Below, one piece after another: positions 850 to 43,824 of a stretch of DNA of 52,910 nt; position 1 is the first letter of the stretch; every line of letters begins with the position of its first letter. The DNA comes from Trueperaceae bacterium. GTDB taxonomy: Bacteria; Deinococcota; Deinococci; Deinococcales; Trueperaceae. A program made the position numbers and the translations under genes. A model generated the notes under the pieces. That model ran no database searches. It was not told the DNA's origin and was given only the letters and a program-made list of their open reading frames with translations. The stretch is from positions 1 through 52,910 of the forward strand of contig JAGQHN010000025.1 of NCBI GenBank assembly GCA_020431825.1, in the 5' to 3' direction.

Positions 850-1842
850 TCAAAAATACTGAATTGTCATTGCGTCTTTAACCCTGTTCAGGGTTTCACT
901 AGCTACCCTTTTGGCTCTAGCTGTACCCTCACTGACTAAGTCTTTAACTTCAGACAAGTTTTGTGCAAATGCTTCACGGCGCTCACGAATCGGTGCTAAC
1001 GTTTCAATAATTTTAGCTGTAAGCTGAGCTTTACAAAACCGACAACCTCTGCTACCTGCCCGGCACTCACCAGCAAGCTCTTCTATACCTGGAGAAAACA
1101 TTTGGTGATAGGTAAAGACAGTACAAATTTCAGGATGTCCAGCATCGTTTACTCTAAGCTTTTGCGGATCGGTTAAAGCTCCTTGAACTTTGGCTTCAAT
1201 TTGAGTGGGTGAATCTGCCAAAAAGATCGCATTATTTAGACTCTTAGACATTTTAGCTTTACCGTCTAAACCTTTCACCCTAGGGAATATGCCGTACTTT
1301 CCCTCCGGCAGCGTCAATGTTTCACCATAAATCCGGTTAAATTTACGCACCAGCTCGCGAGTTTGCTCGAGCTGTGGCATTTGATCTTCCCCAACCGGCA
1401 CCAAATCAGCATTAAATACCGTAATGTCTGCGGCCTGACTGATGGGATAACCAAGAAAACCGTAACTAACCGAATTGCCAAATAGCTCCTTTTTTAGAGC
1501 AATTTCCGTTTTTACTGTGGGGTTTTGCCGAAGTCTTGAGAGACTAACCAAGTTGCTGAAAAAGACAGTCAGCTCAGCGATTTCGGGAATCATGGACTGA
1601 ATCACAAAGGTAACCTTTTCAGGCTCAATGCCTGCAGCTAAGTTGTCTAGCACAACCTCAAAAACATGGCGTCTTACGAGTTCAGGTTCGTGAAAATGAT
1701 CTGTGAGTGCCTGCACATCGGCAATCAAAATAAAGGTATCAAACTCATCTTGTAACTTAACTCTTTCTTGCAACGAACCAAAATAATGTCCAATATGTAA
1801 TTGACCAGTAGGGCGGTCACCCGTCAGAATGCGCTTTCGCAT
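850..1842 (-). CDS. trpS: Tryptophanyl-tRNA synthetase
   Basis: This class I aminoacyl-tRNA synthetase charges tRNA-Trp. Its 330 residues match the usual length. The HIGH signature is at residues 16-19 and KMSKS at 197-201. A cysteine series Cys240-x19-Cys260-x6-Cys267-x2-Cys270 lies just before the C-terminal helices. It resembles the C-x22-C-x6-C-x2-C pattern that binds a [4Fe-4S] cluster in Thermotoga maritima TrpRS, so this enzyme probably carries a cluster. The start has a good ribosome site (AAAGGAG). A terminator hairpin at 1866-1899 and a Trp-rich leader frame at 1919-1975 lie upstream, pointing to attenuation by charged tRNA-Trp. Assignment is firm; the cluster and attenuation are inferred. 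Confidence 0.96.
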   Translation of the reverse strand: MRKRILTGDRPTGQLHIGHYFGSLQERVKLQDEFDTFILIADVQALTDHFHEPELVRRHVFEVVLDNLAAGIEPEKVTFVIQSMIPEIAELTVFFSNLVSLSRLRQNPTVKTEIALKKELFGNSVSYGFLGYPISQAADITVFNADLVPVGEDQMPQLEQTRELVRKFNRIYGETLTLPEGKYGIFPRVKGLDGKAKMSKSLNNAIFLADSPTQIEAKVQGALTDPQKLRVNDAGHPEICTVFTYHQMFSPGIEELAGECRAGSRGCRFCKAQLTAKIIETLAPIRERREAFAQNLSEVKDLVSEGTARAKRVASETLNRVKDAMTIQYF

Positions 1843-41281: not shown

Positions 41282-41644
41282 ATGCTTATCGCTGCTGCAG
41301 TGCTCATTATCTTGATTGCGCTAGCCCATTCTTATCTGGGGGAAAAATACATCATCATGCGTTTACTGCGTTATAAGCACTTACCCAAACTCTTTGGCGA
41401 TGATAGTTTTACTCGCACTACCTTAAGGTTTGCCTGGCACTTAACCACTGTCGCCTGGTTTGGCTTTGCCTATTTGCTCATTGCAGTCACTGCCCAAGCT
41501 GAGCCCGGACAGAGCTTGCTTATAACTACGAGCTGGGTGTTTGCCTCGAGTGCCCTCTTATCTCTAATTTTCACCAGGGGCAGACATTTATCATGGATTG
41601 TCTTTAGCGCTATCGCTTTACTTTCCAGGCTGGCTTTAGCTTAA
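41282..41644 (+). CDS. Small four-helix membrane protein
   Basis: The 120-residue protein has four predicted membrane segments (about 2-18, 48-68, 78-96 and 102-118), separated by a basic cytosolic loop YIIMRLLRYKHLPKLFGDD. I cannot name a family, although small conserved membrane proteins of this plan occur widely. It has no ribosome site and begins six bases after the aldolase stop, so translation is probably coupled. Its stop overlaps the stop of the convergent rtcB gene by four bases. Confidence 0.72.
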   Translation: MLIAAAVLIILIALAHSYLGEKYIIMRLLRYKHLPKLFGDDSFTRTTLRFAWHLTTVAWFGFAYLLIAVTAQAEPGQSLLITTSWVFASSALLSLIFTRGRHLSWIVFSAIALLSRLALA

Positions 41645-42984
41645 TCCCCATCATCAGCCTGACCGCCCATAATCACTACCCTCGGCGTGAGTTTGGCAAT
41701 GCGCTTAATAAGAACGTCTTCCTGCAAGTCCATGACCATCTCAATATCTTTATAAGCCTGATAGGTTTCATCTGGACTCAGACCAAAGTGCAAGATGTCA
41801 GAGGTTTTCATATGTCTTTGAAAAGCCCCTTCATCGTGATCTTTTTTGGCCTGGGTACGTGACACCCAGCGACCGGCACCGTGGCTCGAGGAATGCAGGC
41901 TTGCCTCATTTCCCAAACCCCTTACCAGATAGGACGCTGTTCCGCTTGTTCCAGGGATGATGCCCAGTCTACCCACTTCGGCAGGCGTTGCCCCTTTACG
42001 GTGAATGACTTCGTCACCCTCGAGCCAGGCATAATTATGGCGATTCCAGACTGTTTCTTTAATTTGCAAACCCGCTGCACTAGCAAAGTGCTCATGAATC
42101 AGATCATGGTTGGCCTTGGCATAGTCGCCCATAAGCTCCATGCTTAACCAGTATTCTTTACCAGCATCTTCTTCAAGGGAAAGCCACTCATAGCCTTTGG
42201 GGATGCCTCTGGCGACATGCTTGGTATAGGTTTCAGCTCTTTTGACAAACAAGGTTGCCAGCTTATGCCCGGTGCCTCTACTACCACTATGGGTCATAAG
42301 GCAAACAGCAGTTTCTCCGGCCTTGTAATCACCAAAATCCTCGACAAATTCAACGGTCAGTAAATCGGCAAAGTGATTGCCACCCCCACTGCTGCCAAGT
42401 TGTATCATGGCTTTTTCGTGCAGATTTTTTAAGTCTCGAGTCTCACCCCAGCGAGGATCAAACTCAATATCATGCTCTCTTTTGCCGCTGGCAAAATCTG
42501 CCCCTAAACCAAACGAGGTTTCTGCGTAGAGGTGTTTGGCAAGGCTCTCCCTGTGCTTTTCAAACTCAGCCACCGAAAGATCCAGCAGACTTAGCTGCAC
42601 CATACAGGAAATGTCATAACCAACAAAAGACGGCGAAACGGCTCTCTCCAGACTGACCACGCCACCTATCGGCAAAGCGTAACCCACATGGGCATCGGGC
42701 ATGAGTGCCCCCCGTTTAGCAACAGGCAGTTTAAGAGCGTCATAAATTTGTCCCTCAGCCCCCTGGGGAATATGCTCACCAATAGTGCCAAAGATAGCGA
42801 GTGGCGCAGCTTTGGCATTTGGTCTTAAAAAACTACGGGGGTTAAAGGTTTCGCTGACATAGGCAAGGACCTCAGCCTCACTGGCCCCTGGATGTTGTTT
42901 CACCCATTTGCTTACGGCTTTGGCAATCTTAGGATAATTTGGGTGATCATGATAGTCGATCAGTAAGACATGTGTGTTCATCAT
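41641..42984 (-). CDS. rtcB: RNA ligase RtcB
   Basis: RtcB joins 2',3'-cyclic phosphate or 3'-phosphate RNA ends to 5'-OH ends using GTP and Mn2+, for RNA repair. The 447-residue sequence shows MPDAHVGYALPIGG, the Mn-binding Cys127 in GYDISCM, LGSSGGGNHFAD, HSGSRGTG and SSSHGAGRWVSR, which holds the His that becomes guanylylated. No archease gene is visible. A ribosome site (GAGGAA) precedes ATGATG. The 160-base leader is remarkable: a consensus promoter, two small frames that overlap each other and rtcB, and a terminator hairpin just before the start. Expression is probably controlled by attenuation. Confidence 0.95.
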   Translation of the reverse strand: MMNTHVLLIDYHDHPNYPKIAKAVSKWVKQHPGASEAEVLAYVSETFNPRSFLRPNAKAAPLAIFGTIGEHIPQGAEGQIYDALKLPVAKRGALMPDAHVGYALPIGGVVSLERAVSPSFVGYDISCMVQLSLLDLSVAEFEKHRESLAKHLYAETSFGLGADFASGKREHDIEFDPRWGETRDLKNLHEKAMIQLGSSGGGNHFADLLTVEFVEDFGDYKAGETAVCLMTHSGSRGTGHKLATLFVKRAETYTKHVARGIPKGYEWLSLEEDAGKEYWLSMELMGDYAKANHDLIHEHFASAAGLQIKETVWNRHNYAWLEGDEVIHRKGATPAEVGRLGIIPGTSGTASYLVRGLGNEASLHSSSHGAGRWVSRTQAKKDHDEGAFQRHMKTSDILHFGLSPDETYQAYKDIEMVMDLQEDVLIKRIAKLTPRVVIMGGQADDGD

Positions 42985-43055
42985 TTAGTTCCTCTACAAA
43001 ATAAAAAAGAAGGATGCCTTAACATCCTTCTGGAAAGTTGGTTTTTGCAACTCAT
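42981..43055 (-). CDS. Second leader frame upstream of rtcB, 24 codons
   Basis: The frame MSCKNQLSRRMLRHPSF... begins at an ATG that overlaps the stop of the first leader frame (TAATG) and ends with ATGA overlapping the rtcB start. It runs through the terminator hairpin, so ribosomes in this frame would prevent the hairpin from forming. It has no ribosome site of its own. The peptide composition is unremarkable; the double overlap and the terminator are the reason to list it. Confidence 0.35.
   Translation of the reverse strand: MSCKNQLSRRMLRHPSFLFCRGTK
43005..43031 (-). terminator. Intrinsic terminator in the rtcB leader
   Basis: On the minus strand a perfect 9-bp stem AGAAGGATG-CATCCTTCT with a six-base loop is followed by TTTTTATTTT. 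It ends about 20 bases before the rtcB start. No minus-strand gene lies upstream, so it acts only on the rtcB leader transcript. Confidence 0.85.
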
Positions 43056-43144
43056 TAGTTCACAAAAACGTCTGCCTCCAAAAGGGTTTTGGCGCTGGAA
43101 TCCAGATTGCGGACTATCCGCTTAAAGCAAAAAAAGCTACGCAT
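43055..43144 (-). CDS. Leaderless leader frame upstream of rtcB, 29 codons
   Basis: The ATG is seven bases after the -10 box of a consensus promoter, exactly where leaderless messages in this group begin. The peptide starts MRSFFCFKRIVRN, with three Phe and one Cys codon in codons 4-7. It ends at TAA, which overlaps the ATG of the next small frame. Several short stems lie in the frame (GCGGA-TAG-TCCGC; CCAAAA-CCC-TTTTGG). It may sense translation state, for example loss of tRNA, which RtcB repairs. This is inference; no homologue is known to me. Confidence 0.45.
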   Translation of the reverse strand: MRSFFCFKRIVRNLDSSAKTLLEADVFVN

Positions 43145-43151
43145 CGGCTAG

Positions 43152-43180
43152 AGAGTAGCAACCCTAAACACATCTGTCAA
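43152..43180 (-). promoter_or_regulatory. Promoter of the rtcB leader transcript
   Basis: On the minus strand TTGACA (43175-43180, perfect consensus) is 17 bases from TACTCT (43152-43157). The expected start site is at about 43145, next to the first leader ATG. Confidence 0.78.
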
Positions 43181-43224
43181 TACTGGAAATCTGGCGAAAA
43201 CTATGCCTCGAGGCATTCTTTAGA

Positions 43225-43230
43225 TAAACT
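43225..43230 (+). promoter_or_regulatory. Minus-10 box of the DJ-1/PfpI-like gene
   Basis: TAAACT is six bases before the GTG at 43237, again indicating a leaderless message. It is divergent from the rtcB leader promoter 45 bases away. Confidence 0.55.
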
Positions 43231-43236
43231 ATTCTC

Positions 43237-43824
43237 GTGAATATCGGCATTTTGTTGTTTCATGAGGTCAGTGAACTAGATGTGGTTGGACCTTTTTCAG
43301 TGCTAAATACTGCCCTGAGATTTTTGCCTGAGGACGATAAAACTCAGGTTTTTACCATTGCCAAATCACGCAATTCAGTGCAAACGTCTAATGAAATGAC
43401 CATAACCCCCCTTTACGCTTTTGCCAGCGCTCCTCCTTTAGATGTGCTGATTGTACCGGGGGGGAGAGGCATTGATAAGGCGCTCCGGGACAGAGCCATT
43501 GCCAGCTACCTACCCCTTGTCATACCCAAACTCAAACTGAGTGCCAGCATTTCCAGTGGGGCCTTGCTTCTAGGGCATTATGGTCTTTTGAGAGGAAAAA
43601 CAGTCACCACTCATCCGGAGGTCATGTCAAGGCTCGAGGATTACGAAATCTTGCGTGCCTCAAAAGATAGCGTGGTCTATGACGACAAAGTCTGGACGAG
43701 TAATGGCAGCGTAGCAGGCATTCAACTGGCTTTTGAACTGTGCAAAGGTCTCTTTGGCGACGGCATAACCGCAAAAGTTGCCGATGTACTGAATGTACAA
43801 ACACTGCAAGGCCAGCTTTTTTAG
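43237..43824 (+). CDS. DJ-1/PfpI-family protein lacking the usual nucleophile Cys
   Basis: The 195-residue protein has the class I glutamine amidotransferase-like fold of the isonitrile hydratase/ThiJ group. LLFHEVSELDVVGPFSVL at the start holds the acidic residue of the family, followed by LDVLIVPGGRGID and GKTVTTHPE. At the nucleophile elbow the family normally has C-T/S-G; here it reads SISSGALLLG, so Ser106 stands in place of Cys. The protein is either inactive, acts as a binding protein or uses Ser. It starts with GTG after a leaderless-type promoter and is divergent from rtcB. Confidence 0.8.
   Translation: MNIGILLFHEVSELDVVGPFSVLNTALRFLPEDDKTQVFTIAKSRNSVQTSNEMTITPLYAFASAPPLDVLIVPGGRGIDKALRDRAIASYLPLVIPKLKLSASISSGALLLGHYGLLRGKTVTTHPEVMSRLEDYEILRASKDSVVYDDKVWTSNGSVAGIQLAFELCKGLFGDGITAKVADVLNVQTLQGQLF

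Follow-up and report, generated by a model that had tools for sequence, protein, structure and literature searches.

Little is settled about the control of the RNA ligase gene rtcB in bacteria that lack RtcR, and a stretch of 52,910 nucleotides from a Trueperaceae bacterium (assembly GCA_020431825.1, contig JAGQHN010000025.1; hereafter the window) raises this question at a locus where a promoter, two short reading frames and a terminator precede the gene. In this genome rtcB is solitary: RtcR and RtcA (PF06956, PF01137) were not found in the assembly, which is about 94% complete, with E. coli controls positive, and archease was not found either. Control by RtcR was rejected because no RtcR was found; the known RtcR/sigma-54 route for rtcBA (PMC7790460), which likewise controls rtcB but relies on a protein activator with a CARF domain, is unavailable to an rtcB that lacks RtcR, RtcA and archease. 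With a little better than even confidence, we read the rtcB leader as a ribosome-mediated (leader-peptide) transcription attenuator. The gene and its ribosome site are located as follows.

41641..42984, minus strand: rtcB, RNA ligase, 447 aa (PF01139, 1.9e-72; relatives with solved structures)
42991..42996, minus strand: Shine-Dalgarno sequence AGAGGA of rtcB, read from the sequence

Upstream of this ribosome site lie the promoter and the two frames.

43175..43180, minus strand: -35 element TTGACA, exact consensus
43152..43157, minus strand: -10 element TACTCT, 17-nt spacer, 7 nt to ATG 43144, fitting the Deinococcota motif TANNNT
43055..43144, minus strand: uORF1, 29-codon leader peptide MRSFFCFKRIVRNLDSSAKTLLEADVFVN with stop codon TAA, predicted to be leaderless from the promoter spacing and a trpS-like layout
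42981..43055, minus strand: uORF2, 24 codons, probably incidental, with a TAATG overlap with uORF1 and an ATGA overlap with rtcB

The original prediction had placed TTGACA, a 17-base spacer and TACTCT beside ATG 43144, followed by a 29-codon frame, TAATG, a 24-codon frame and ATGA at the rtcB start; every promoter coordinate proved correct and the frames are as described. Since 402 kb of the genome, searched on either strand, hold only 20 promoters of the exact type TTGACA-N16-18-TANNNT, the promoter is not weak evidence. TTGACA-N17-TACTCT is unlikely to have arisen by chance, and still less likely with an ATG at leaderless distance. A sigma-70 scan gave no match at TACTCT because this element agrees with TATAAT at only three of six positions. 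In Deinococcota, many genes are leaderless, with a TANNNT -10 element whose distance to the start codon is 6-7 nt (PMC12340547), and in the 402 kb TANNNT preceded in-frame ATGs at gaps of 6 and 7 nt in 4.1% and 3.9% of cases, compared with 2.0% and 1.2% for out-of-frame ATGs at the same gaps. As TACTCT fits this leaderless motif, the transcript may well begin with ATG 43144, and a start at or next to it, as originally proposed, is supported further by a trpS leader of identical layout described below. A weak -10-like sequence, TATTTT, lies inside the U-tract of the terminator and could act as a weak second promoter that bypasses the switch.

Between this promoter and the gene, folding of the leader yielded two competing structures.

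43008..43031, minus strand: intrinsic terminator, stem-loop AGAAGGATGTTAAGGCATCCTTCT followed by TTTTTATTTT, 10 bp, -13 kcal/mol, with U-tract
43075..43085, minus strand: 5' strand of the antiterminator, CCUUUUGGAGG (leader nt 60-70), from folding of the truncated leader
43026..43036, minus strand: 3' strand of the antiterminator, UUUCCAGAAGG (leader nt 109-119), from folding
43041..43069, minus strand: hairpin GUUUUUGUGAACUAAUGAGUUGCAAAAAC inside the antiterminator, -8.8 kcal/mol, holding the uORF1 stop and the uORF2 start

The terminator had been recognized from the start, and its hairpin (43031-43008, -13 kcal/mol) is real, while the description of it as strong does not hold, the hairpin being of moderate and ordinary stability. 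According to the folding model, the decisive element is the antiterminator, which was absent from the earlier description. In the emerging leader, 43085-43075 pairs with 43036-43026 in an 11-bp helix, and the sequence AGAAGG is common to the 3' strand of this helix and the 5' arm of the terminator; because both structures use this arm, they are mutually exclusive. Nucleotides 60-67 of the antiterminator also overlap a small hairpin formed with nt 53-58. Competition of the antiterminator with the terminator arm amounts to -9.1 kcal/mol, a strength reached in 3 of 1000 shuffles (0.3%) and in 0.6% of controls in which random segments of the same window were substituted for the natural upstream sequence.

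The outcome of this competition depends on how much of the leader has emerged and on where a ribosome stands. The antiterminator has a modelled probability of at least 0.97 with nt 121-133 exposed and of nearly 1.0 once nt 121 is out, and as long as a ribosome has not gone past about codon 17 of uORF1 it is free while the 5' arm of the terminator emerges. A ribosome edge beyond nt 61-64, which corresponds to an A site beyond about codon 17, abolishes it, and the terminator then reaches a probability of 1.00; these codon numbers come from a model run with two ribosome edges 2 nt apart, of which the downstream edge shifts them about one codon earlier. Once the 3' arm of the terminator is exposed, the terminator wins at equilibrium, with a probability in the finished leader of about 0.93 without a ribosome and 0.77 with a ribosome edge at nt 37. 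As the finished leader favours the terminator, antitermination must be kinetic.

From this arrangement we infer the direction of control. RNA polymerase would start at or next to ATG 43144, so that ribosomes would load onto uORF1 at the extreme 5' end of the transcript and presumably translate its peptide. Under free translation, the ribosome would cover leader nt 60-70 while the polymerase makes nt 109-137; with these nucleotides covered, the antiterminator would be blocked, the terminator would form and rtcB would be off. With no ribosome on uORF1, or with one that moves slowly or has stalled no later than about codon 17, nt 60-70 would pair with nt 109-119, and this pairing would delay the terminator, allowing the polymerase to read into rtcB, which has its own Shine-Dalgarno sequence. 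The uORF1 peptide carries Phe-Phe-Cys-Phe at codons 4-7 and Ser-Ser at codons 16-17, with less-used codons at positions 9, 10 and 16 (CGG, ATA, TCC), and close to the switch point no control codon is repeated in a row. The Phe-Phe-Cys-Phe noted in the original prediction is not special in the model, which leaves the antiterminator free wherever the A site stands up to about codon 17, and its candidacy as a set of dedicated control codons was rejected since the model gives it no preference over other early codons. Because no single control codon run lies near the switch point, the signal is probably slow or blocked translation in general rather than one amino acid.

An internal control for this interpretation is found at the opposite end of the window.

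850-1842, minus strand: trpS, class I Trp/Tyr synthetase
2010-1876, minus strand: trpS leader, TTGTCA-N17-TAGACT-N6-ATG, leaderless four-Trp peptide MLFLTSLSWWHSSWRWRS and terminator, read from the sequence

In another genus of the family (L123), a trpS that is 64% identical is preceded by the leader peptide MKTVIFHSRSSNLALAVWWHCGRWRRFV and a terminator, with WWH...RWR kept in the peptide. The ribosome model places the trpS switch between the first and second Trp codons, the value being -7.8 kcal/mol when the first Trp codon occupies the A site and 0.0 when the second does. The trpS leader is thus clearly a ribosome-driven Trp attenuator of a tRNA synthetase gene, and its modelled switch at the Trp codons indicates that this clade uses 5'-end leader peptides for attenuation, as well as that the ribosome model identifies the expected codon in a case with a known answer. 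When stretches amounting to 1.29 Mb of genome were examined for the same layout, a gap of 5-8 nt combined with a Shine-Dalgarno-led gene returned three cases (rtcB, trpS and a PLP-type aminotransferase), whereas other gap sets returned none or one each, one of these being the rtcB leader again by way of an alternative -10 element. The leader of the PLP-type aminotransferase (L059:12637-12540, minus strand) has an 11-codon frame, MLLSNTVVITF, predicted to be leaderless and followed by a terminator; no antiterminator was seen in it in the model.

The attenuator reading of the rtcB leader is accordingly supported by the leaderless motif, the exclusive antiterminator, the trpS control, the three-fold occurrence of the layout and the lack of RtcR. 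It is weakened by the lack of a homologous leader, a terminator favoured at equilibrium, the lack of an obvious control codon and of an Rfam match, and the possible bypass promoter TATTTT. That transcription into rtcB depends on the ribosome, as first suggested from the letters, is supported by the leaderless motif, the antiterminator/terminator pair and the trpS leader.

The same pair of structures would also serve a switch that is real but worked by RtcB, another RNA-binding protein, an RNA fragment or a ligand, an alternative that we consider rather unlikely and in which binding would take place at a set of tandem small hairpins and the short frames would be incidental. The leader does contain three perfect tandem hairpins with 3-nt loops and stems of 5, 4 and 6 bp (leader nt 24-67; 43121-43078, minus strand), a trio matched in 0.3% of shuffles, and the model favours the antiterminator without any ribosome. 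However, Rfam covariance models produced no match to the leader at gathering score and spurious weak ones at permissive thresholds, with no family emerging even there, and both the ATG at leaderless distance and the clearly ribosome-driven trpS leader of the same genome argue for the ribosome as the agent.

It is decidedly unlikely, in our assessment, that the locus is not regulated at all. In that case an ordinary promoter would be followed by a terminator that leaks constitutively, or would make a small RNA with its end at 43008, and both the short frames and the alternative helix would be there by coincidence. The folding energy of the whole leader, unexceptional at z -1.37, would agree with this, as would the fact that the pattern was chosen after the whole window had been read, and evidence from conservation is absent. 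For the latter, rtcB was searched in the family, order, class and phylum, in GTDB contigs, viral contigs and plasmids, the order, class and phylum searches representing one set of 111 genomes. In the only close rtcB (L011/L023, 79-81% identity), from a genome of the same family (G001), the contig (CALHRJ010000004.1) ends inside the gene, so that the 5' part and the leader are missing; other relatives are at most 45% identical, and no comparable leader was seen upstream of their rtcB. The leader searched as DNA gave no match in the 111 genomes. These searches thus found no homologous leader and gave no conservation support for the uORF1 peptide or the helices. The rtcB subtype itself was found in only two genomes of the phylum, this one and G001, from different genera, and not in the other genome of the same genus as this one, a patchy distribution that suggests gene transfer or frequent loss. 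An interspersed-repeat origin was rejected as well: TGGATTCCAGC has nine genome copies compared with one for the reversed-pattern control, a mild excess in a sequence too short to explain the leader. Against a locus without regulation stands the coincidence of an exact promoter, a leaderless ATG and a terminator between promoter and gene, together with an exclusive antiterminator at p ~0.003-0.006.

The second frame contributes little to this argument. The TAA of uORF1 shares one base with the ATG of uORF2 (TAATG), and the TGA of uORF2 overlaps the rtcB ATG at 42984 (ATGA); shuffling produced an overlapping two-frame chain into a fixed start in 0.4% of cases and a chain of one frame, uORF2 alone, in about 9%. 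A survey of 185 gene starts that have free space upstream gave 15 with a chain, three of them with a double chain, and two of these three are the rtcB locus itself counted at two adjacent ATGs. Because the whole window had been screened, the frame chain alone is weak evidence, and uORF2 taken alone is unremarkable and probably incidental. That both frames are translated in a chain, with restart at TAATG and ribosomes crossing the terminator so that translation opens rtcB, is very unlikely even though the chain is exact and reinitiation at overlapping stop and start codons is well established, since uORF2 has no Shine-Dalgarno sequence, starts inside the -8.8 kcal/mol hairpin and would, if translated, oppose the antiterminator logic, while rtcB has its own Shine-Dalgarno sequence and the trpS leader works without any such frame. 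For the same reasons a necessary role for the second frame, an integral part of the original prediction, is not supported.

Comparison with known systems shows that the earlier statement that no described system resembles this leader was too strong, because leaders of the same kind exist in whiB7, toiL and trp-type attenuators (PMC10287673, PMC12121999). The two helices of the rtcB leader correspond to the 2:3 and 3:4 arrangement of classical attenuators. Like trp-type attenuators, including the leaderless trpL of Sinorhizobium meliloti (PMC7298713), the rtcB leader opens with a short frame, provides an upstream strand complementary to the 5' arm of an intrinsic terminator and is followed by a gene with a ribosome site of its own, with ribosome position deciding the outcome. 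It differs in having no single regulatory codon run near the switch, in preceding an RNA ligase rather than a biosynthetic gene, and in that the model favours the antiterminator without any ribosome. The whiB7/wblC uORF attenuator of actinobacteria is thought to sense ribosome stalling in general, and whiB7 is raised when the toxin VapC5 cuts a tRNA, the authors linking cutting to stalling and attenuation (PMC10287673). This uORF-mediated attenuator and proposed general stalling sensor is similar in kind to the rtcB leader and differs in having a transcription factor as its target and in belonging to another phylum. As no single amino acid is marked in uORF1, a general translation sensor of the whiB7 type becomes likelier for rtcB. 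The toiL uORF of E. coli topAI-yjhQ is multipurpose and responds to stalling at different positions (PMC12121999), but acts via a ribosome site and Rho, not via an intrinsic terminator. Within the same phylum, the RtcB gene Deide_21600 of Deinococcus deserti is radiation-induced and listed among the responders of the IrrE/DdrO pathway (PMC5552922), and is thus a further rtcB family gene under stress control. In the literature covered, no paper tied bacterial rtcB to transcription attenuation, and the rtcB leader is probably an addition to the leader-peptide attenuators with a target gene of a new kind.

If the leader is indeed an attenuator read by ribosomes, RNA repair would respond directly to how translation is faring, and leaderless leader peptides, which suit the Deinococcota naturally, would serve stress genes besides amino-acid genes. 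A bolder version, in which the leader senses translation stress in general and turns the RNA ligase on when ribosomes stall because tRNAs are cut, appears doubtful to us at present, and tRNA damage as the signal is speculative; were it true, the damage would be sensed by the ribosome itself and not by a protein of the RtcR type. For experiments on the rtcB leader, the trpS leader in the same window offers a ready internal control.

Beyond the leader, a divergent DJ-1/PfpI gene on the plus strand (43225-43239: TAAACT-N6-GTG) looks leaderless as well, judging from its sequence. Between the divergent rtcB and PfpI promoters lies a perfect 14-bp palindrome, ATGCCTCGAGGCAT (43203-43216), which sits at the -35 element and spacer of the PfpI promoter and is a possible operator. 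Of the 895 CTCGAG palindromes in 402 kb, 8 are extended at least as far as ATGCCTCGAGGCAT. CTCGAG itself occurs 2.2 times per kb in this genome, and loci of 3-4 kb from related genomes (L024-L030) hold 10-32 copies each, resembling a highly repeated palindrome found across the phylum.
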